A stretch of 64,000 nucleotides of DNA, taken from contig NZ_PJNI01000009.1 in NCBI RefSeq assembly GCF_002844555.1, forward strand, positions 62,001 through 126,000, written 5' to 3'. Positions within the stretch are counted from its first letter, which is position 1, and each line of letters opens with the position of its first letter. Under the pieces are notes generated by a model. The model was not told the origin of the DNA, did not search any database, and was given only the letters and a program-made list of their open reading frames with translations. This document shows, piece after piece, positions 50,173 to 61,872 of the stretch. The position numbers and the translations under genes are program-made. This DNA is from Brumimicrobium salinarum (GTDB lineage: Bacteria; Bacteroidota; Bacteroidia; Flavobacteriales_D; Crocinitomicaceae).

Positions 50173-51600
50173 TTAAACTTCAACAATTTCACCTTTTAAA
50201 GAAGCTTTGTTGGCTGCCGTAATTTTTACCATTACATAATCGCCAATTTTTGCATCCTTTTTATCAAATATCACCTTGTGATTTTTATCTGTTCGCCCCA
50301 TTAACTGTTCTGAAGAACGACGAGATTCCTTTTCTATTAACACTTCTTGAATTTCGCCTATCTGCTTATTGTTTATTGCTAAACTGTGTTTATGCTGTAA
50401 TTCTATTACTTCTTCAAGACGACGTTGTTTAACATCTTCAGGAACATTATCCTCGTATTTACGCTCTGCCAAAGTTTTTGGTCGCTCAGAGTATTTGTAC
50501 ATGTAAGCTGAATCATATCTAACCTCCTTCATAATGGAAAGTGTATCTTGATGTTGCTCTTCAGTCTCATCACAAAACCCAGTAATGATATCTGTAGATA
50601 TCCCACAATCTGGTATAATTCGCTTAATTGCATCAATTCTATTCATATACCATTCACGTGTATAACCTCTGTTCATTCTTTTGAGTACATCACTATTTCC
50701 GGATTGTACTGGTAAATGAATATAATTACATACATTCTTGTGTTTTGCAATAGCATGCAAGACATCATCTGTCATATCTTTAGGATGGGAAGTAGAAAAA
50801 CGAACACGTAACTTTGGATGTACTCCTGCAACCATTTCTAATAATTGTGCAAAATTCGTGGTTGGTTTAGTTTCATCTTTTATTTCTCCTTTACTGGTCA
50901 TATTCCATCTGTATGAGTCAACATTTTGCCCCAACAAAGTCACTTCTCGATATCCTGCATTATACAAAGCTGCACATTCTTGCACAATGGTGTGTGGGTC
51001 TCTACTTCTCTCTCTACCTCTGGTGAAAGGAACCACACAAAAAGAACACATATTATCACAACCTCTTGTTATACTCACAAACCCGGTTACTCCGTTTTTA
51101 TCTAAACGTACAGGGCTAATATCTGCATAAGTTTCATCACGTGACAATAAAACGTTCACAGCTTTTTGTCCGCCATCAACCGCTTCAATTAAACCAGGTA
51201 AATCTCGGTAAGAATCAGGTCCTGCGACTAAGTCAACTAACTTTTCCTCCTCTAAGAGATTTGTTTTTAACCGTTCGGCCATACACCCCAATATACCTAT
51301 TACCATTCCTGGCTTTTGTTTTTTCGCTTTATTAAATTGTGTAAGTCGATTTCTTATTCTTTGCTCTGCATTTTCTCGAATACTACACGTATTTATCAAA
51401 ACAACATCTGCCTCATTTGAATCTTGGGTAGTCACGTATCCTTGATCTATAAGTATAGAGGCTACAACCTCACTATCGGAGAAATTCATAGCGCATCCGT
51501 AACTTTCTAAAAACAATTTCTTACCCTCTTCCTTATCATTCATGGATAGAGCCTCACCTTGACGCTCTTCATCCATATCCTTATCTAATACAATTCCCAT
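50173..51600 (-). CDS. miaB: tRNA-2-methylthio-N6-dimethylallyladenosine synthase (MiaB)
   Basis: This 475-residue radical SAM methylthiotransferase has the UPF0004 domain ([14 protein letters not shown] with the first iron-sulfur Cys, [21 protein letters not shown]). The radical SAM CxxxCxxC is in [13 protein letters not shown], and the TRAM domain forms the last 65 residues. It converts i6A37 to ms2i6A37 in tRNAs. It is the first gene of the operon and has a near-perfect promoter 25 bp upstream of the start. Confidence 0.96.
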
Positions 51601-51625
51601 TGCTAATTTTCAATTTTATGAACTG

Positions 51626-51656
51626 CAAAGATATACTTTCTTCTTCAGGTGTCAAA
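51626..51656 (-). promoter_or_regulatory. Promoter of the miaB-secG operon
   Basis: On the minus strand TTTG (51653-51656), a 19-bp spacer, and TATCTTTG (51626-51633) match both elements of the Bacteroidota sigma-A consensus exactly. Confidence 0.75.
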
Positions 51657-51846
51657 ATGTCAGTCGATATTTTTAAATAAAAGTTTCCATAAAACTTTTT
51701 GATTTTAAAATTGTAATAATTTGTAGTGTATTTTTGAATCCTTAATAAAAATTCTGAAAAGTAAAATCAAAGGAAAGTTTGTTATTGGTATTAATTTAAA
51801 GTTATTTTGCATTCAATTTCATTAAAAGTAAATACGGTTTATCATT

Positions 51847-54249
51847 ATGGCAAAGAATTTAGTAATTGTTGAGTCCCCTGCAAAAGCAAAAACAATAGAA
51901 GGATATTTAGGTAAAGATTTCCTTGTTTTATCAAGTTATGGACACGTAAGAGATTTAGCTAAAAAGGGCGTAGCAATCGACATCGAGAATAATTTCAAAC
52001 CTAATTATGAAATAAGTACAGATAAAAAATCTGTAATTACAGATTTAAAAAAGGAAGTTAAGAAATCAGAAACTGTTTGGCTAGCAACGGATGAGGACCG
52101 TGAAGGAGAAGCAATATCTTGGCATCTTTATGAAACCTTGAAATTAAAAAATAAAGATACCAAAAGAATTACTTTCAATGAAATCACGAAATCGGCAGTT
52201 CAAAAAGCAATTGAACAACCAAGAGAAATAAATCAAGAATTGGTAAATGCTCAGCAGGCAAGACGAGTTCTAGATCGATTGGTAGGATTTGAACTTTCTC
52301 CAGTATTATGGAAAAAAGTAAAACCTAGTCTGTCCGCAGGAAGAGTTCAATCTGTTGCTGTAAGATTGATCGTAGAAAGAGAACGGGAGATAATGAATTT
52401 CAAACCCGATAATTACTTTAGGGTTACTGGAGATTTCGTTAGCGGTAAAGACAAGATAGCTGCTACTTTGGCTCACAACTTAAAGTCTAGTGAAAAAGTA
52501 GAGGCATTTCTAAACGATTGTAGCACTGCCAATTTTAAGGTTAATGAGGTTACCAAAAAGCCGGGAAAGAAAAATCCAAGCGCACCATTTATCACATCTA
52601 CCTTACAACAAGAAGCAAGTTTAAAGCTTGGCTTTAGTGTTTCAAGAACCATGCGTGTTGCACAAAGTTTATATGAATCTGGGCTTATAACTTATATGAG
52701 AACAGACAGCGTAAACCTTTCCGAAACAGCCATGGAAGGCGCAAAAAAGACAATCGTTTCTAATTATGGGGCCGAGTTTAGTAATCCAAAAAAATATAAA
52801 AGTAAAAGTGCCGGAGCGCAAGAGGCACACGAGGCGATTCGTCCAACAGACTTCAGTGTTTCATCCGTTAATAAAGGCAATGATGAAAATCGCCTTTACG
52901 ATTTGATTTGGAAAAGATCAATTGCTTCTCAAATGAGTCCTGCGAAATTAGAAAGAACAACGATAAAAATAGGTGCTGATAACGTAGAAGACATCTTCAT
53001 TGCAAAAGGAGAAGTAATCAAATTTGAAGGATTCTTAAAAGTTTACTTGGAATCACAACTTGAAGATGAAGATGATGAAGATAAAGCATTAGAAGGATTA
53101 TTACCTGATCTTAAGGAAGGAACAGAACTCGATAAATTAGCAATCGTTGCACGAGAACGCTTTACAAAAGCAGCTCCAAGATACGTAGAAGCTTCATTGG
53201 TAAAAAAATTAGAAGAACTAGGAATTGGTAGACCGTCCACTTATGCACCTACAATTTCTACCATACAAAAACGTGGGTATGTAGAAAAACTAGAACGAGA
53301 AGGTACTGAACGAACCTACCTTATATATACACTTGATGAAAAAGGAACAAAGAAAGAAGAAGCAACAGAAATAACTGGACGCGATCGTAATAAACTTTCT
53401 CCTTCAGATATTGGAATGGTGGTAACTGACTTCCTTGTAGAACACTTTGGAGACATTCTAAACTACAATTTTACCGCTGAAGTAGAACAGGAGTTTGACG
53501 AAATTGCCAACGGATTAAAAGAATGGACAGAAATGATCAAACGTTTTTATGATCCATTTCATAAAACAGTTGAACATACACTAGAACATTCTGAACGCGC
53601 ATCGGGTGAGAGATATTTAGGAGAACATCCTAAAACTGGCGAAAAAGTAATTGTTAGAATTGGACGTTACGGTCCAATGGCACAAATAGGAGATACTGAA
53701 GGTGAGAAAAAAGCAAGATTTGCAAGCTTACGCCCACAACAATCAATCGAAACAATAACATTTGATGAAGTTATGGATTTGTTTAAACTTCCTAGAGAAT
53801 TAGGCGAGTTTGAAGATAAAGTAGTAAAAGCAAACATCGGACGTTTTGGACCTTATGTGCAACATGACGGTAAATTTGTATCGATAAAAGAAGACGATCC
53901 TATGGATATCGAGCTTGATCGCGCAATTGAATTAATAAAAGAGAAGCGCATTGAAGATGCAAAAAAGTTAATCAAAACATTCCCCGAGGATGACAACATG
54001 CAGTTACTTAATGGTCGATGGGGACCGTACTTGAAAATTGGTAAGAAAAACTATAAACTCCCTAAAGATCTTGAGGAAGAAGATATTCCGAAGCTAACCT
54101 ACGAGCAGTGTGTTGAAATATCGGAAAATCAGCCTAAGAAAACAGGACGCAAAAAAAGTACTGCAAAGAAAAAGAGTACAACAAAAAAGAAAAGTACGAC
54201 GAAGAAAAAAAGTACGACGAAGAAAAAAACAACAGAAAAAAAGAAATAA
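51847..54249 (+). CDS. topA: DNA topoisomerase I
   Basis: This 800-residue type IA topoisomerase has the Toprim start LVIVESPAKAKTIEGYLG and DEDREGE. The active-site Tyr is in GLITYMRTDSVNLS, and three C-terminal zinc-free topo C domains are suggested by repeats such as IGRYGPMAQIGD and IGRFGPYVQHDG. The last 40 residues are Lys-rich with four KKKST units in a row, probably a DNA-binding tail. It relaxes negative supercoils. The arginase-fold gene starts 30 bp downstream. Confidence 0.97.
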   Translation: MAKNLVIVESPAKAKTIEGYLGKDFLVLSSYGHVRDLAKKGVAIDIENNFKPNYEISTDKKSVITDLKKEVKKSETVWLATDEDREGEAISWHLYETLKLKNKDTKRITFNEITKSAVQKAIEQPREINQELVNAQQARRVLDRLVGFELSPVLWKKVKPSLSAGRVQSVAVRLIVEREREIMNFKPDNYFRVTGDFVSGKDKIAATLAHNLKSSEKVEAFLNDCSTANFKVNEVTKKPGKKNPSAPFITSTLQQEASLKLGFSVSRTMRVAQSLYESGLITYMRTDSVNLSETAMEGAKKTIVSNYGAEFSNPKKYKSKSAGAQEAHEAIRPTDFSVSSVNKGNDENRLYDLIWKRSIASQMSPAKLERTTIKIGADNVEDIFIAKGEVIKFEGFLKVYLESQLEDEDDEDKALEGLLPDLKEGTELDKLAIVARERFTKAAPRYVEASLVKKLEELGIGRPSTYAPTISTIQKRGYVEKLEREGTERTYLIYTLDEKGTKKEEATEITGRDRNKLSPSDIGMVVTDFLVEHFGDILNYNFTAEVEQEFDEIANGLKEWTEMIKRFYDPFHKTVEHTLEHSERASGERYLGEHPKTGEKVIVRIGRYGPMAQIGDTEGEKKARFASLRPQQSIETITFDEVMDLFKLPRELGEFEDKVVKANIGRFGPYVQHDGKFVSIKEDDPMDIELDRAIELIKEKRIEDAKKLIKTFPEDDNMQLLNGRWGPYLKIGKKNYKLPKDLEEEDIPKLTYEQCVEISENQPKKTGRKKSTAKKKSTTKKKSTTKKKSTTKKKTTEKKK

Positions 54250-54279
54250 GTTCGTAAACATCCATTCAGAAAACGAAAA

Positions 54280-55434
54280 ATGAAAGACATATCCTTATAT
54301 TTTCAACCTGTCGGAAATACAGAAGAAAAAATAGAAGATTCTTTACATACTTATATTAATATATATCAAGAGGAAGAATTTCCAACTTTAGATAAAAAAG
54401 GGGTCGCCATTTTTCACGTACCTGAATACCGTAACGATACTCATGCTAAAGAGAAGCGATACAAAAATGAATTTAGAAACAAACTATATCGTTTATTCAG
54501 TGGTTCTAATTGGGAGCACACTATTTACGATTTAGGCAATATAGCACCTGGTAAACACATTAACGACACCTTTCATGCTATAGAAACTGTATGTGAAGAA
54601 CTCATAAAAAAAGAAATTATCCCAATAGTCGTTGGAGGAACACATGATCTTACCAACGCTATTTACAACACCTACGGCAAACTTGAACAATTGGTAAACT
54701 TAACTGTAGTGGATCACAAGATAGACTTAGGAGATGCTAATCAACAAGTTAAGAGTGATGGTTGGTTGAGTCATTTACTACTTCAAAAACCGTGTTACCT
54801 CTTCAATTTTGCAAACATTGGCTTACAAGGTCATTACACCAGTAAAAATTCATTAAAGCTTTTTGAAGAGTTATATTTCGATGTTACGAGGTTAGGTGAC
54901 ATCAGCAGTAACATAACTTTAGCTGAGCCTCAACTAAGAAACACAGATTTGCTTAGTTTTGATTTAAACAGCATCAGAGCAAGTGATTTACAGAATGAGA
55001 ATTACTCATCGCCCAATGGTGTTTTTGCCCACGAAGCTTGTCAAATAATGAGATACGCAGGAATAAGCGACAAATTAACAAGCGTTGGTGTTTTTAATTA
55101 TTTCAGTGAAAATCATCAAGTAACAGATGAACTCCTCGCGCAACTCATTTGGTATTTCAACGAAGGATATGCCAATAGAAAGGGAGACTTTCCGATTGGA
55201 AGCAAAAAAAGTTACACCAAGTACCGGGTGTTTTTGGAAGAACTCAATGAAGAAATTTTGTTCTACAAAAGCGACAAGTCTAGCCGATGGTGGATTGAAG
55301 TTCCTTATCCTGGAACTTCAAAATCTAAATTCTTAAGACATCAAATGGTTCCCTGCGATTATAACACTTACCAAGAAGCAATGAAAGGAGAGATTCCAGA
55401 TGTTTGGTGGAAGACATATCAAAAGTTTGTATAA
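54280..55434 (+). CDS. Arginase-fold protein lacking key metal ligands
   Basis: This 384-residue protein has the ureohydrolase layout, but the Mn-binding motifs are altered. GGDHS reads GGTHD (H122 kept). DAHxD reads DHKID, so D145 and D149 are kept but the middle His is K147. SxDxD reads SFDLN, with D228 kept and N230 in place of the second Asp. Bacteroidota relatives next to topA and the gld genes are often labelled formimidoylglutamase. With two of six ligands changed, normal binuclear Mn catalysis is doubtful. It is followed by porP after 180 bp. Confidence 0.8.
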   Translation: MKDISLYFQPVGNTEEKIEDSLHTYINIYQEEEFPTLDKKGVAIFHVPEYRNDTHAKEKRYKNEFRNKLYRLFSGSNWEHTIYDLGNIAPGKHINDTFHAIETVCEELIKKEIIPIVVGGTHDLTNAIYNTYGKLEQLVNLTVVDHKIDLGDANQQVKSDGWLSHLLLQKPCYLFNFANIGLQGHYTSKNSLKLFEELYFDVTRLGDISSNITLAEPQLRNTDLLSFDLNSIRASDLQNENYSSPNGVFAHEACQIMRYAGISDKLTSVGVFNYFSENHQVTDELLAQLIWYFNEGYANRKGDFPIGSKKSYTKYRVFLEELNEEILFYKSDKSSRWWIEVPYPGTSKSKFLRHQMVPCDYNTYQEAMKGEIPDVWWKTYQKFV

Positions 55435-55616
55435 ACAAATATTACGAAAGATTTCGAAAACCAATAAAGCACCGAAAAGCATTATTTTATTACAGAAAAT
55501 CGAGAATTTTATTTTTTTTATTTTCTTTTTACATTTTTTTAACTACTTTAGTCGACTGATGAAGGTAATAAAACCATCGTCAAAGGCTTAAACTATTGAA
55601 AAGAAGCAGTATAACT

Positions 55617-56543
55617 ATGAAAAAACTTTTACTTATTTCTATCTTAATATCCGTAAGCGTTCTATATACTTACGGACAACAGGACAAAGTTCTTACACAT
55701 TTTATTTTTGATAAGATGAGTATTAATCCTGGAGCAACAGGTGTCGGAATGAACCATCAGGTTTGTGGAACAATGATTTACCGAAATCAATGGGATAAAT
55801 TTAATGGTGCCCCCAACTCAGTTTTAGTTAATGCAGAAGCAAATCTATCTCAGTACTTTCCAAGTGCTGCAGGTATTTCATTCTATCATGATGCTATTGG
55901 ATACTCAAGACAAAACAACCTCACTTTGAACTACGCTTATCATTTGAATTTAGCGGATGGTGTTCTTGGAATAGGAGCTGCATTAGGAATGGTAAGTTAT
56001 GGAATGAATCCTACATGGATCACTCCTGACGGAAACCCAAATGACAACTCACTTCCTGAGTCAAAATCACAAGCCACTTTTGATGCTAATTTCGGAGTTT
56101 ACTATATGTCAAACGGAGGTTGGTATGCAGGACTTTCTTCAACACATTTACCTGCAATGGGTTTAAGTGATTTAAACTTTAACACCGCTAGACATTATTA
56201 TGCAATGGGTGGTTATCGCATGGATGAAGCATTTGATGTTTCTCCGCTTTCACTCGAAGCGAATGTCCTTGTTAGATCGGATTTCAAAGTATTGAGTTCC
56301 GACATTAACGTAAGAGCAATCTGGGATGATATGTTTTATGGAGGAGTAACTTTTAGAACAACAGATGCTATTGGAATTATGGCAGGTTTAAACTGGAATT
56401 CATTTACATTTGGTTATTCTTATGACATCACTGTTAATCGAATTTCAAATATTTCAGCAGGTTCTCACGAACTCCTTGTGAAATATTGTCATCCATTGCC
56501 TCCAATTCCAATTACAAAGGCAAGAAATCCAAGATATTTATAA
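55617..56543 (+). CDS. PorP/SprF-family T9SS outer-membrane protein
   Basis: The start is at the ATG at 55617 (MKKLLLISILISVSVLYTYGQQ), giving a 308-residue protein with a signal peptide; the frame continues a few codons upstream to a TTG. The sequence has the PorP/SprF pattern FIFDKMSINPGATG, YRNQWDKFNGAPNS and repeated barrel strands ending YDITVNRISNISAGSHE. Such proteins form a beta-barrel linked to the T9SS. It directly precedes gldK in the conserved porP-gldK-L-M-N order. Confidence 0.9.
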   Translation: MKKLLLISILISVSVLYTYGQQDKVLTHFIFDKMSINPGATGVGMNHQVCGTMIYRNQWDKFNGAPNSVLVNAEANLSQYFPSAAGISFYHDAIGYSRQNNLTLNYAYHLNLADGVLGIGAALGMVSYGMNPTWITPDGNPNDNSLPESKSQATFDANFGVYYMSNGGWYAGLSSTHLPAMGLSDLNFNTARHYYAMGGYRMDEAFDVSPLSLEANVLVRSDFKVLSSDINVRAIWDDMFYGGVTFRTTDAIGIMAGLNWNSFTFGYSYDITVNRISNISAGSHELLVKYCHPLPPIPITKARNPRYL

Positions 56544-56653
56544 AACTTTAATTAGAAACTGTAACCATTTACAAAGCTTTACCGTTATATTAATCCCAAG
56601 TATGTTGATCCTGTAGAAAGTTATTGGAGATTCGGAAAGCAAAAACGAGGTAT

Positions 56654-58198
56654 ATGAAAAAATTATTAATTATTGGTTTAATCGGGTTAATACTCGGGTC
56701 TTGTAGTACAAGATCAGGGCATTTAACAGGTGTTTTAGGTAGACAAGTTTACTACCCTGAAATTCCATTAGGAATGGTCTATATTCCATCAGGTTCTTAT
56801 ATCATGGGGCAAAATGACCAAGATGTTCCTTTTATGCATCAATCAGTTGCTAAGACGGTATCTGTTCAAGCATTTTATATGGATCAAACAGAAATCACTA
56901 ACAATGAATACCGTCAATTCGTTAATTGGGTAAGAGATTCGATAGCGCGTACAACAATTTATACCACAGTTGAAGAAGACGAGACTGCTGATAGATTCTT
57001 AAACTATCGTGAAGAATATTACGATGAAGGTATCGTTGAGTGGGTTGAATACGAATCAAGTGACCGTTTCGAAAACATTGAGAAGTTTCCATTGAACTGG
57101 GATCGTTCATTCTCGTATGATGATCCAGAGTTAGTTCCGTTATTAACTGATATGTATTATCCATCATCGCAACGTTTCTACAAAAGAAAAGAGTTTGATA
57201 CAAGAAAGTTAAACTTCAAATATTACTGGATTGATATTGTTGAAGCTGCACGTAGAGGTAAAATTCATATCAAGCAGGACGGATATGATAATACGGGGTC
57301 TAAACTTGACAATGATCACCGTACATTGCGTACACCAAAGCATCCTTTTACGAAGGAAGAACAAGGACAAGACAAAGATATGGGTCGTGTTAATAAACTT
57401 GGACAAAACAATGCCATTAGAGGACACGAAAACAGACAACGTTTTGTGATTGAGGAAACAATTAATGTTTATCCTGATACTTTATGTTGGGTACGTGATT
57501 TTACATATTCTTTCAATGACCCAATGACTAATATGTATTTTTGGCATCCTGCGTACGACAACTATCCTGTCGTAGGAGTAACGTGGGTTCAAGCAAAAGC
57601 ATTTAATGTATGGAGAACCCAGCTTTTAAATAGTTGGTTACAATCCATGGGAGAAATCTATGTTAATGATTTCCGTTTACCAACAGAAGCAGAATGGGAA
57701 AGAGCATCTCGTGGTGATTTAGATTTGTCACAATATCCTTGGGGTGGTCCTTATATCAGAAACTCTTCAGGATGTTTCTTAGGAAACTTTAAACCGATGA
57801 GAGGAAGATATTTTGAAGATGGAGGTTTCCATACTGTTAAGGCATTTTCTTACAATCCAAATGGTTGGGGATTATATTGTATGGCTGGAAACGTATCTGA
57901 ATGGTGTGAAACTGCATATGACGAGTCTATGTATGAAATGTCTCATGACTTGAATCCAGAATACCGTTACAACGCAATGGATTGGGATCCACCATCAATG
58001 AAGCGTAAAGTAATAAGAGGAGGTTCATGGAAAGATATTGGATATTACTTACAGAATAGTACAAGAACTTATGAGTATAGAGATACAGCTAAATCATACA
58101 TTGGATTTAGATCTGTTGCAACTCATTTAGGTCGTGGAGGAAGAGATTTCTCAAGTGAAGGAGGTGAAGAATTAGATCAAGACCTTCAATTAAGATAA
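56654..58198 (+). CDS. gldK: T9SS ring lipoprotein GldK
   Basis: The start is at the ATG at 56654, giving 514 residues; an upstream TTG only adds ten residues. A lipoprotein signal (IGLILGSC) precedes an FGE-sulfatase (SUMF1-like) domain with MVYIPSGSYIMGQND, NNEYRQFVNWV, RLPTEAEWERASRG and GNVSEWCETAYDE. GldK/PorK forms the periplasmic ring of the T9SS with GldN. gldL follows 58 bp downstream. Confidence 0.95.
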   Translation: MKKLLIIGLIGLILGSCSTRSGHLTGVLGRQVYYPEIPLGMVYIPSGSYIMGQNDQDVPFMHQSVAKTVSVQAFYMDQTEITNNEYRQFVNWVRDSIARTTIYTTVEEDETADRFLNYREEYYDEGIVEWVEYESSDRFENIEKFPLNWDRSFSYDDPELVPLLTDMYYPSSQRFYKRKEFDTRKLNFKYYWIDIVEAARRGKIHIKQDGYDNTGSKLDNDHRTLRTPKHPFTKEEQGQDKDMGRVNKLGQNNAIRGHENRQRFVIEETINVYPDTLCWVRDFTYSFNDPMTNMYFWHPAYDNYPVVGVTWVQAKAFNVWRTQLLNSWLQSMGEIYVNDFRLPTEAEWERASRGDLDLSQYPWGGPYIRNSSGCFLGNFKPMRGRYFEDGGFHTVKAFSYNPNGWGLYCMAGNVSEWCETAYDESMYEMSHDLNPEYRYNAMDWDPPSMKRKVIRGGSWKDIGYYLQNSTRTYEYRDTAKSYIGFRSVATHLGRGGRDFSSEGGEELDQDLQLR

Positions 58199-58256
58199 GA
58201 ACAAACAAGTAAATAAAAACAAATAAATAAATCGTTAAACCTTAAAAATTAAAACT

Positions 58257-59078
58257 ATGAAACCAGGAAGTAAAGGATGGAAAAATTTTATGGCTAAATT
58301 ATACGGTATCGGAGCGGCCGTAGTAATTCTAGGAGCATTATTCAAAATTATGCACTGGCCAGGGGCAGGTCCGATGTTAGTTGTAGGTCTAGGAACTGAA
58401 GCACTTATTTTCGTATTCTCGGCATTTGAACCAATACATGAGGATCCGAATTGGGAATTAGTATATCCCGAATTAGCTTTAGGAAATGATGAAGACTTCA
58501 ATCCAGAAGAGCTACAATCAGGGTCTAGACGTGGAGGAAATGGTGGTACAGGTATCACTGGTGAACTCGACAAAATGCTCGAAGAAGCGAATATAGATAG
58601 TGAGCTTTTAAATCGCTTAGGTGAAGGAATGAAAGCTTTAGGAGATAATGCCGCACAATTAAAAGGTGTAACATCAGCAGCTGCTGCAACAGATTCGTAT
58701 GTTGAAAGTTTACAAGCCGCTTCAGATAAAGTTTCACAGCTTTCAGAGTCGTATGAAAGAGCATCGGTTGCAATTTCAGGAATGACGTCTTCAACAGAGG
58801 AAGGTCAATCTTTCGGAGAGCAAATGCAAAAAGTATCGAAGAACTTATCAGCTTTGAATAATGTTTATGAGCTCCAATTAAAAGGTTCATCGGCACACTT
58901 AGAGGCAACTGAAAAGTTCCAAGGACAAGTTACAGATATGATGCAAAACTTATCTGAATCTGTTGAAGATACAAAACTATACAAAGAAAATATGTCTATG
59001 TTGTCTAAGAATTTAACAGACTTAAATAATGTATATGGTAACATGCTTAAAGCAATGACAGTTAGAGATAACGGTTAA
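58257..59078 (+). CDS. gldL: T9SS/gliding motor protein GldL
   Basis: This 273-residue protein has two membrane helices near the N-terminus (MAKLYGIGAAVVILGALFKIMHWPG with the conserved KxxHWPG-like turn, and LVVGLGTEALIFVFSAF). A long coiled-coil-rich cytoplasmic region follows. GldL and GldM form the inner-membrane motor that turns proton flow into mechanical work. A conserved Glu in the second helix (GTEAL) is in place. Confidence 0.96.
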   Translation: MKPGSKGWKNFMAKLYGIGAAVVILGALFKIMHWPGAGPMLVVGLGTEALIFVFSAFEPIHEDPNWELVYPELALGNDEDFNPEELQSGSRRGGNGGTGITGELDKMLEEANIDSELLNRLGEGMKALGDNAAQLKGVTSAAAATDSYVESLQAASDKVSQLSESYERASVAISGMTSSTEEGQSFGEQMQKVSKNLSALNNVYELQLKGSSAHLEATEKFQGQVTDMMQNLSESVEDTKLYKENMSMLSKNLTDLNNVYGNMLKAMTVRDNG

Positions 59079-59144
59079 TTATCATATCGAACCAACAAAG
59101 AAAGGTTCAACATTAATTAGTAAATTCTAAAATATTAATAAAAG

Positions 59145-60845
59145 ATGGCAGGAGGAAAAGAAACCCCAAGACAAAAGATGATCGGGATGATGTATCTCGT
59201 TCTTACTGCTCTTTTGGCACTGAACGTGTCAAAGGAGATAATTGCAGCATTTGTTACAATTAATGATAAGCTAGATGCCAGTGGTGAAGTTATAGATAAC
59301 GCCACAAAGTCTACTTATGGTACATTTGAAGCGAAAAGAGCTGCTATTCTTGCAGAGAAAGGTGATTTAAAAGTCATTAATTTATGGCAAGGAAAAGCAG
59401 ATAACTTAAACAACAGAACAAAACAAATTATTCACTTTATATTATCTGAATCTAACGACATGATTAAATATGTTGAAGGTAAAGACTGGGTTGCAGACAA
59501 AGATGAACAAGGAAGAATTGTTGAATTAGAATCGCTTTTGAAGATTCAGGCGATGGATAATTACGATAAACCGACTGAAATGTTTATTGGTCCAAATCCA
59601 ATGAAACCAAAAGCAAGAGGTTTAGCGATTCTTGACAGTATACATGCATACAGGAATTATGTTGCTGAACAAATGGGTAACTATAAAGTCGGAGCAAAAG
59701 AATATACGTTCACTGCACCTGATGATATATCTGGATTAAAAGAGGCATTGAAAACTGCAAATCCTGAAGATACTTCACGAATTGCACAGTATTACAAGTC
59801 AATGACTATTCCTGCTGAAATAGAAGTAAAAGATGCTGGAAAAAACAGAATGGTTCCATGGCCTACAGCTATGTTTGACAGAGCACCAATTGTTGCAGCA
59901 GCAGCTATGTTTACAGCACTAAAGCTTGATGTTTTGAATAGTGAAAGTACAGCCGCTGATTTTATGTTATCAAAAGTTGATGCACCGACATTTAACTTTA
60001 ATAAAATTGAACCATTAGCTTTTGCGAGAACAGGTTATATTAACGCAGGTGATTCTTTGAACGTACGCGTGATGATTGCGGCTTATGATTCAACAGATGT
60101 GCCTCCGATTAAGTATGGAGTAAATGATTCTATACCTGGAAATTGGAAAAGCACAACTGGAAGTATTAAGGTAGACGGCTCATCTCCTGGAAACTACAGA
60201 ATGACAGGATCAATTGGAGTTAAGGAAAAAGGAGAGTTGAATTGGAAGCCTTGGGAGTTTAATTACACTGTTGGTAAGCCATCTGGTACAGTTTCCCTTC
60301 CAGAAATGAATGTACTTTACCGTGGTTATGACAATAAGGTTGAAGGAGCCGCATCTGGTTTTCCAGATTACAACCTATCAGGTGCAGGAAACGTTTCAGT
60401 AACTAGGAGCGGTGATGGATACATTGCTAAACCTGGGTCAGGAAGAACAGCTAAAATTAATATATCAGGGGTAGCTGAAGATGGTTCAAGTAGTAACTTG
60501 GGTAGCTTTGAATTCAGAGTTCAAAACTTACCAAAACCTTCTGTATCTTTAGGTAGAATTAAGGATGGAGAATCTGCTACTTCAGGTCAATTACGTGCCT
60601 CTAGACAATTATTCGCAGGTTATCCGCCTTCTATACCATTGAAAGCAAAGTTTGGTGTTGTTTCTTGGGAAATATCTGTTTCAGGAGCACCAAGACCAGT
60701 GAAAGGTACAGGTTCGAAGTTAAGTGGAGCAGCATTGAGAATCATTGCGAATGCTCAAAAAGGTGGCATGGTAACAATTGTTACTAATTATCGTGAACCA
60801 AGCGGTAGAATTAAGCGTCAAAATGCTGTATTTACTGTAAAATAA
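59145..60845 (+). CDS. gldM: T9SS/gliding motor protein GldM
   Basis: This 566-residue protein has one N-terminal helix (MIGMMYLVLTALLALNVSKEI) and a long periplasmic part. The periplasmic domains D1-D4 can be seen as helix-rich then beta-rich segments, ending in IVTNYREPSGRIKRQNAVFTV. GldM spans the periplasm to contact the GldK/N ring. It starts 66 bp after gldL and ends 19 bp before gldN. Confidence 0.96.
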   Translation: MAGGKETPRQKMIGMMYLVLTALLALNVSKEIIAAFVTINDKLDASGEVIDNATKSTYGTFEAKRAAILAEKGDLKVINLWQGKADNLNNRTKQIIHFILSESNDMIKYVEGKDWVADKDEQGRIVELESLLKIQAMDNYDKPTEMFIGPNPMKPKARGLAILDSIHAYRNYVAEQMGNYKVGAKEYTFTAPDDISGLKEALKTANPEDTSRIAQYYKSMTIPAEIEVKDAGKNRMVPWPTAMFDRAPIVAAAAMFTALKLDVLNSESTAADFMLSKVDAPTFNFNKIEPLAFARTGYINAGDSLNVRVMIAAYDSTDVPPIKYGVNDSIPGNWKSTTGSIKVDGSSPGNYRMTGSIGVKEKGELNWKPWEFNYTVGKPSGTVSLPEMNVLYRGYDNKVEGAASGFPDYNLSGAGNVSVTRSGDGYIAKPGSGRTAKINISGVAEDGSSSNLGSFEFRVQNLPKPSVSLGRIKDGESATSGQLRASRQLFAGYPPSIPLKAKFGVVSWEISVSGAPRPVKGTGSKLSGAALRIIANAQKGGMVTIVTNYREPSGRIKRQNAVFTVK

Positions 60846-60864
60846 ATGAATTAAAAACAAAGTC

Positions 60865-61872
60865 ATGAAGAATTTAATGCTATGTACAATGTTGATTTTT
60901 AGCTTGAGTCTTTTTGCTCAAGAAATCAATGGAGGACCAATTAATAGCCGAACGGAAACGGGTGTTATTGATGGAGTTTATCTAAAATCAAACATTCCAA
61001 CAAAACGGCTTATTCCCTACGAACATGTGCGTGAAGCTGATGTTATATGGAGTAAACGTGTTTGGCGAGCAATAGACCTTCGTGAAAAAATAAATCGTCC
61101 TTTGTACTTTCCATTGGATGAGTTTACAAATCCAGATCCGGAAACAGGAGAGGTAGAATGGGTTAGAAATGATAACCGTTGGAGTTTGTGGACAATCATA
61201 CGCCAACATATTTTATCTGGTGATCTAACAGTATATTCAGACTACAACCCTGTAAGACCTTCAATAAAGGATGGTGATAAATTTAAATATCCATTATTAC
61301 CTGAACCTGGTAAAAATTATGCAACAGACTCTATCTATAGAGATGAATTGTTATATTATTTAGCAGAGTTAGGTGAAGTTGCATTAGATCCATATCTAAA
61401 CATATACGGAGAAGACTCAGTTGATATTAATGGAGAATTAGTTTATCCTCCTCGTGATACAATCTGGTATACCTCTAAAGACATTATTCAATACCGTTTG
61501 AAAGAAGATTGGTTTTTTGATAAAGAAAGATCAGTTCTTGATGTTAGAATCCTTGGAATTGCACCGGTAAGGTACTTGAAGGATCAAAACGGAACAATTT
61601 CTGGAACATGGACAATGTTTTGGTTATACTTCCCTACTGATTGTCGTTACGTATTTAACAATTACTTTGTTTATAATGAAGACAATGGTGCTAGATGGAT
61701 GAGTTTTGATGATTACTTTATGAAAAGACGATTCAGTTCATTCATTTACAAGGAAGAAAACGTCTATGACAGAAGTGTTGAGAAATACCGTGTAGGTGTT
61801 GATGCCTTGATGGAATCACAAAGGATAACTGAGGAAATAAGAACCTTAGAACACGATGTTTGGAGTTACTAA
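60865..61872 (+). CDS. gldN: T9SS ring protein GldN
   Basis: This 335-residue periplasmic protein has a signal peptide ending near LSLFAQ. The GldN/PorN features are READVIWSKRVWRAIDLREKIN, PLYFPLDE and FDDYFMKRRFSSFIYKEENVYDR. It forms the T9SS ring with GldK. It is the last gene of the gld block, followed by a strong terminator. Confidence 0.95.
   Translation: MKNLMLCTMLIFSLSLFAQEINGGPINSRTETGVIDGVYLKSNIPTKRLIPYEHVREADVIWSKRVWRAIDLREKINRPLYFPLDEFTNPDPETGEVEWVRNDNRWSLWTIIRQHILSGDLTVYSDYNPVRPSIKDGDKFKYPLLPEPGKNYATDSIYRDELLYYLAELGEVALDPYLNIYGEDSVDINGELVYPPRDTIWYTSKDIIQYRLKEDWFFDKERSVLDVRILGIAPVRYLKDQNGTISGTWTMFWLYFPTDCRYVFNNYFVYNEDNGARWMSFDDYFMKRRFSSFIYKEENVYDRSVEKYRVGVDALMESQRITEEIRTLEHDVWSY

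Follow-up and report, generated by a model that had tools for sequence, protein, structure and literature searches.

The window (the whole 64,000-nucleotide stretch of Brumimicrobium salinarum DNA analysed here) carries, at 54280–55434 on the forward strand, a gene with an ATG start for a 384-residue protein that we designate, from its Pfam and NCBIfam matches and a fold model, a pseudo-formimidoylglutamase of the arginase fold, or pseudo-arginase for short. Just as the preliminary description had placed it, the gene sits between topA and a row of T9SS genes, all on the forward strand. Upstream is the DNA topoisomerase I gene topA (51847–54249, profile match), which ends 30 bp before it. The downstream block (55596–61872) begins with a porP/sprF-family T9SS gene (55596–56543, profile match) whose ORF starts 161 bp past the pseudo-arginase gene, followed by gldK for the PorK/GldK ring lipoprotein (56624–58198; NCBIfam 565.7 bits, cut-off 350), the T9SS motor genes gldL (58257–59078; 252.2 bits, cut-off 68.3) and gldM (59145–60845; 224.7 bits, cut-off 180), and the T9SS ring gene gldN (60865–61872; 172.7 bits, cut-off 85.9). 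The pseudo-arginase is predicted to be cytoplasmic from its sequence, in which a signal sequence is not obvious by eye.

With respect to known families, the protein belongs by score to the superfamily of Pfam Arginase PF00491 (33 bits, cut-off 22), but it is far from the equivalog score of the NCBIfam hutG model TIGR01227, reaching 26.6 bits where the cut-off is 229. That cut-off is a strict one, as four controls belonging to other classes of the phylum attain 199–214 bits. The hutG model matches all of the 58 relatives scanned (best E = 2.5e-33), and the nearest named relatives are from Flavobacteriales, several of them Crocinitomicaceae. The same genome encodes three further arginase-family proteins, each of which has kept all six metal ligands. 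One is an agmatinase (218.5 bits, cut-off 174), another is arginase-like (192 bits, cut-off 228) and the third is HutG-like (TIGR01227 60 bits, cut-off 229).

Alignment to canonical relatives puts the six ligand positions at H122, D145, K147, D149, D228 and N230. Four of these ligands are kept in the window protein and two are replaced: a His by Lys147 in the DxHxD motif (here D145-H-K147-I-D149; 54712–54726, forward strand) and the last Asp by Asn230 in the DxD motif (here D228-L-N230; 54961–54969, forward strand). These are the two substitutions that had been read from the sequence at the outset. Among 135 distinct family proteins (that of the window, those of loci from other genomes and those of 80 named loci, with identical sequences removed) the six-ligand set is complete in none. 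It is complete in 9 of the 13 controls, which comprise this genome's other three arginase-family proteins and 10 HutG-like ones belonging to other classes of the phylum; the four incomplete controls have Asn at the first His (n = 3) or at the third Asp (n = 1). The first His, kept here as His122 (codon at 54643–54645, forward strand), is missing from 120 of the 135 family proteins (His in 15, Gln in 109), the His of DxHxD from 128 (His in 7, Lys in 51, Arg in 30) and the last Asp from 129 (Asp in 6). The remaining three Asp ligands are retained in 126, 121 and 128 of the 135. The ligand set is incomplete throughout the family, and the annotation of relatives as formimidoylglutamase, mentioned in the preliminary description, fits the hutG matches.

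An AlphaFold2 model of the window protein (58 sequences; pLDDT 91.3, pTM 0.92) has the arginase fold; the structure alignments drew on 57 and 51 of the 80 named loci. Its best VIA-align match is the T. cruzi formiminoglutamase 4mxr (Z 33.5, rmsd 2.2, 274 residues), the B. subtilis formimidoylglutamase 3m1r reaches Z 31.7, and every one of the 50 Foldseek and 50 VIA-align rows listed belongs to the arginase superfamily. When compared with known structures, the family profile finds 3m1r (E 5.9e-13, residues 44–301) and the non-catalytic subunit B of metformin hydrolase (E 2.4e-6). The solved-structure matches cover model residues about 17–302. The part beyond them (residues about 302–384; 55183–55431, forward strand) lies outside the arginase match and forms, by alignment and model, a family-specific C-terminal domain of four strands and two helices (pLDDT 83.7 when modelled alone), in which W337 is present in 135 and C359 in 134 of the 135 family proteins. 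This domain has no Pfam match in the 4 members tried, a PDB sequence search gave only insignificant matches for it (best E 0.13), and a fold search reached at best Z 3.8, with no clear match among those listed; the domain may yet have a known fold.

Is the protein, in spite of its altered site, what the databases call it? A genuine formimidoylglutamase that tolerates changed ligands would be in keeping with its closest solved folds, which are formimidoylglutamases, and with the retention of the first His and three Asp in the window protein. However, two ligands are gone here, none of the 135 relatives is complete, the TIGR01227 score falls well short of the cut-off, and the genome has a separate HutG-like protein with six ligands. 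Moreover, one genome study (PMC11278836) reports a formiminoglutamase as the only histidine-degradation enzyme detected, without the rest of the pathway; we would take that formiminoglutamase to be a member of the pseudo-arginase family. We consider a genuine enzyme of this kind very improbable, and we are highly confident that the protein is not a Mn ureohydrolase. The comparison with HutG (TIGR01227; 4mxr, 3m1r) can be put briefly: the arginase fold is shared over residues about 18–301 (Z 31.7–33.5), whereas two of the six ligands are gone, the score is far below the cut-off and there is an extra C-terminal domain of ~80 residues.

Inactive members of the arginase family are not without precedent. 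In metformin hydrolase, the active subunit depends on an inactive one that is also of the arginase family (PMC11271267, PMC11399263), and the former source mentions reports of pseudo-arginases from both eukaryotes and prokaryotes whose functions are elusive. The pseudo-arginase resembles the beta subunit MetCb/MefH-beta in being an arginase-family protein that has lost metal-coordinating residues (PMC11271267), and could likewise be an inactive subunit that pairs with a working ureohydrolase; its fold and profile matches do include metformin hydrolase subunits, the non-catalytic one among them, and three ligand-complete arginase-family proteins are at hand in its own genome. On the other hand, MetCb has its active partner encoded adjacently (metCa-metCb), whereas no such partner is adjacent to the pseudo-arginase gene, the six scanned neighbours (topA, porP and gldK to gldN) including no arginase-family gene. 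Furthermore, the family member is the sole PF00491 match in 7 of 60 gene-positive genomes (G099, G138, G214, G261, G359, G363 and G379, all of family f3) in a chosen set that includes two genomes, G355 and G396, whose own family member escapes PF00491. Unless partners escape that model too, the protein does not in general require one from its own superfamily. As a general rule the pseudo-subunit explanation fails, and we regard it as quite improbable. From the arginase-like protein of Trypanosoma brucei, which is eukaryotic, the present family differs in being bacterial, class-wide and equipped with a C-terminal domain of its own.

The family is a single clade in both trees built. In the first, of 56 proteins, one branch (SH-aLRT 96) divides its 43 members from the 13 controls, and this branch is still found (SH-aLRT 97) when the ligand columns and the C-terminal part are left out (54 rows); both trees are quick ones without bootstrap, with long branches in the controls and in f5/f7. 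The gene is under purifying selection: for 22 chosen Flavobacterium-type loci (53 of 231 pairs, dS 0.1–1.5), its median dN/dS is 0.046, compared with 0.041 for topA, 0.045 for gldK, 0.126 for gldL and 0.159 for gldM. Over all pairs it evolves faster than its neighbours (median pN/pS 0.194 versus 0.099 for topA and 0.123 for gldK). The ligand loss, the fold, the trees and the purifying selection strongly support the proposal that this is a conserved arginase-fold pseudoenzyme, a gene that has lost catalytic residues and is nonetheless conserved under selection.

Where its function now resides is suggested by the fast-evolving families f5 and f7. In nine chosen members, D145 is found in only 1 and D228 in 2, yet W337, W291 and Q183 are present in all nine, and F328, C359, E216, P217 and R220 in eight. 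Other conserved residues, several of them in the C-terminal domain, are less often retained in these members: R51, S331, R336 and W338 in four and P373 in three. Since these proteins drop the metal-site Asp residues while retaining W337, C359 and others, the longest-kept residues lie elsewhere than the metal site, and the function has shifted off it. This bears on the idea of an enzyme with a new, metal-free chemistry, based either on a remodelled site (three Asp plus Lys/Arg147) or on the conserved Cys359 or Cys254. Such an enzyme would account for Lys or Arg at position 147 in 81 of the 135 proteins, for the three Asp in 121–128 of them and for the near-invariance of C359; in addition, the family-specific R51 and R204 follow core strands and, to judge by the fold, may face the old active-site rim. 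But the site varies freely, with 60 ligand patterns printed for the 135 proteins, and in f5 and f7 it is largely gone though W337 and C359 stay. A new chemistry is thus, in our estimation, unlikely.

Among the 80 named loci, which are the best-scoring relatives and in which Flavobacteriales weigh heavily, topA is found in 60, gldK in 54, gldM in 49 and porP in 31, contig ends lowering these counts. In a set of 111 loci, topA is upstream in 70 and porP/gldK downstream in 65: 60 have both flanks, 10 topA only, 5 the gld side only (L035, L075, L076, L079, L081) and 36 neither, the last figure including contig ends. The order topA–pseudo-arginase–porP–gldKLMN recurs in two taxonomic orders. One is the order of genome G230 (taken to be Bacteroidales), where it is seen in 12 of 12 gene-positive loci fetched, all chosen from linked cases. 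Of that order's 106 genomes with both coordinates, 61 have GldM on the same strand, 3.1–4.6 kb downstream, and 23 further gene-positive genomes have no GldM row among the matches listed. At two loci the pseudo-arginase gene has been cleanly lost in place with the remaining order intact, leaving topA–gldK in L178 (G727) and topA–porP–gldK in L182 (G788).

This arrangement can be understood in two ways: either the pseudo-arginase serves the gliding/T9SS machinery of the downstream genes, or it is a pseudoenzyme with another client, having a housekeeping role on the topA transcript unrelated to the T9SS, and the gld genes are its neighbours because the locus is old and stable. The spacing favours the housekeeping role. 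The median gap is 12 bp from topA to the pseudo-arginase gene versus 163 bp from there to porP/gldK (both lower bounds, since each ORF was made to begin at its first ATG, GTG or TTG), which suggests a conserved topA transcript that carries the pseudo-arginase gene. The 30 bp between the two genes in the window (54250–54279) are often only 3 bp, or an overlap, elsewhere. The TAnnTTTG motif, a Bacteroidota promoter element, points the same way: it occurs in 31 of 64 downstream gaps (mean 10.95, maximum 18 in 200 shuffles), with a slight enrichment in the upstream gap (7 of 62; mean 1.84, maximum 6). With its downstream gap so enriched in the motif, gldK may be a separate transcription unit. In the window's own downstream gap no TAnnTTTG was seen by eye, scans of 51400–56800 for sigma-70-type promoters and terminators gave no excess over shuffles, and a scan of the downstream gap for inverted repeats gave nothing interpretable. 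Loci L134 and L136, with topA and the pseudo-arginase gene and no gld genes within 9 kb downstream, are also as a housekeeping role would have them. Against it are the five loci with the gld side where topA was not found, the Pedobacter- and Mucilaginibacter-related loci with neither neighbour, and the fact that nothing links the pseudo-arginase to topoisomerase function.

A further point against the housekeeping role comes from family f7. In three of five f7 loci (L045, L048, L049; L061 was left out of this neighbour survey), the gene stands near another T9SS locus: it is beside murF, which lies on the opposite strand; gldJ comes next, porU is no more than four genes away, and two of the three also have porP. 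In L048 the neighbours were scored (GldJ 411 bits, cut-off 458; PorU 1183 bits, cut-off 420) and in L045 and L049 they were identified by cluster membership. The f7 pseudo-arginases at this second T9SS locus have lost most of the old metal-site residues. In loci of f3, f4, f5 and f8, the small number of neighbours that were annotated (in L064, L051, L039, L053 and L047) show no evident T9SS link, and no gld genes were found within the stretches fetched for them. In G002, a closed single-contig f3 genome, the gld genes have been rearranged, with gldL and gldM on the forward strand and gldN and gldK on the reverse strand (L155; G002:C1, 9701–14566). The SprA model found nothing in this genome, which possibly has a divergent or SprA-less GldKLMN system, or else represents a miss of the SprA search. 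In six other loci (L077, L082, L085, L091, L096, L126) gldM is followed by two or three consecutive gldN-like genes, presumably resembling a duplication of the gldN/gldO type.

The pseudo-arginase is a class-wide protein. Within the window's class, a single-protein query found a match in 90 of 98 genomes (its own genome included), with 35 other, weaker matches in other classes of the phylum; ten of these were fetched, and they are HutG-like, with six ligands complete in 6. The family profile has a match, in a few cases a weak one, in 349 of 375 Bacteroidia genomes at E 0.001. GldK is over its cut-off in 348 of the 375 and GldM is found at E 0.001 in 358. We have used GldM as the T9SS marker; GldK alone is ambiguous in its lower-scoring matches, and SprA negatives were not used since the SprA search missed the GldM-positive G002. 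Because GldM is in 358 of the 375 genomes anyway, co-occurrence at this level is weak evidence. Families f10, f12 and others have a T9SS without the pseudo-arginase. The converse is not widespread: 9 of the 349 gene-positive genomes are without GldM (out of 17 GldM-negative ones in the class sample), and six of the nine are less than 90% complete. In two genomes, G359 and G446, GldL, GldM and GldN were not detected and there are only weak GldK matches. In G446 (95% complete) the contig ends 470 bp from the gene, and a gap is possible. G359 (99% complete, 30 contigs; GldK match at 4.5e-27) has kept the gene and is a real challenge to the T9SS link. Both genomes, like the many that retain a T9SS without the gene, are what one would expect of a housekeeping role.

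In 188 sampled genomes from the order of G230 there were 142 family matches, of which 133 were counted; nine weak ones were removed as other arginases (G727, G750, G753, G789, G802, G811, G860, G878, G890), and the weak G721 and G832, which reach the C-terminal part, were retained together with the fragmentary G761 and G891. GldM is present in 172 of the 188. The pseudo-arginase accompanies it in 131 of these and is absent from 41, compared with a presence in 2 of the 16 GldM-negative genomes, both of which have SprA and are probably assembly gaps. Fisher's test of the gene against GldM gives p 6.6e-7, with genomes treated as independent though they are related. This relatedness matters: in a GldM tree of 40 chosen loci (28 of the 41 gene-negative and 12 gene-positive genomes), 19 of the 28 examined gene-negative genomes form one clade (SH-aLRT 99), so that the co-absence with the T9SS is not independent evidence. 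One old loss accounts for much of the absence of the gene in this order. Should the T9SS-free families nest in the gene-negative clade, their lack of the gene would tell little. The presence of the gene needs 8 changes on the tree, of which no fewer than 2 fall on supported branches, and there were probably several losses with the T9SS retained. GldL length was tried as a correlate of gene loss and rejected, since there is no difference (median 315 versus 317 aa). For these reasons we have set co-occurrence aside as proof of a T9SS role. The expectation that the gene would accompany gldKLMN across genomes agrees with the bare counts in the order of G230 and is not proven by them; it is weakened by the 41 T9SS-bearing genomes without the gene, of which 19 of the 28 examined are one clade, and by G359.

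How far, then, is the pseudo-arginase part of the T9SS? Like the core genes gldK–gldN (porK–porN), beside which it is found in many Bacteroidia, it belongs to a recurrent gene order. Unlike them, it is not always present with a T9SS (a core component would not be missing from 41 of 172 GldM-positive genomes) nor always absent without one, and the matches of its own family are arginases only. The preliminary description had suggested a structural or regulatory role beside gldKLMN. The recurrent gene order and the co-occurrence speak for such a role; the T9SS-bearing genomes without the gene, G359 and the greater proximity to topA speak against it. Searches of open-licence papers in connection with the T9SS, gliding and gldK listed no study of this protein.

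The evidence from the site and from selection leads us to infer that ureohydrolase activity is absent and that the function is one of binding. Whatever the client may be, we think a non-catalytic binding role probable. A HutG-like ureohydrolase in the lineage leading to Bacteroidia would have lost its binuclear metal centre and acquired a further domain, about 80 residues long, at its C-terminus, and the gene would then have been inherited, apparently vertically, often just behind topA. The protein would probably act in the cytoplasm as a protein- or ligand-binding module, without metal catalysis, a partner or a small molecule being bound either at the rim of the former active site or by the C-terminal domain. 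As to the client, our leading guess is the gliding/T9SS machinery of the downstream genes, such as the GldLM motor on its cytoplasmic side. Service to this machinery is hinted at by gene order, and as a claim it is tentative, standing about even with the housekeeping role tied to the topA transcript, to which we give the same guarded credence. In its most explicit form, the T9SS reading would make the pseudo-arginase a cytoplasmic gliding/T9SS accessory: a dead formimidoylglutamase that binds the cytoplasmic face of the motor via its own C-terminal domain, the old site perhaps serving to sense a ligand and so to adjust assembly or the activity of the motor, and which was lost in a large T9SS-bearing clade. 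So detailed a picture is rather unlikely to be right in all its parts.

Whichever client is the true one, a gene present in 349 of the 375 Bacteroidia sampled is probably misnamed, and its name would then bring a false histidine-degradation step into genome annotations. The family is a class-wide pseudo-arginase under selection, with an added domain, whose gene is often next to those of the T9SS motor. If a role in gliding or secretion is true, a cytoplasmic accessory of the T9SS has been overlooked; if it is not, there is a conserved function beside topA to be found.
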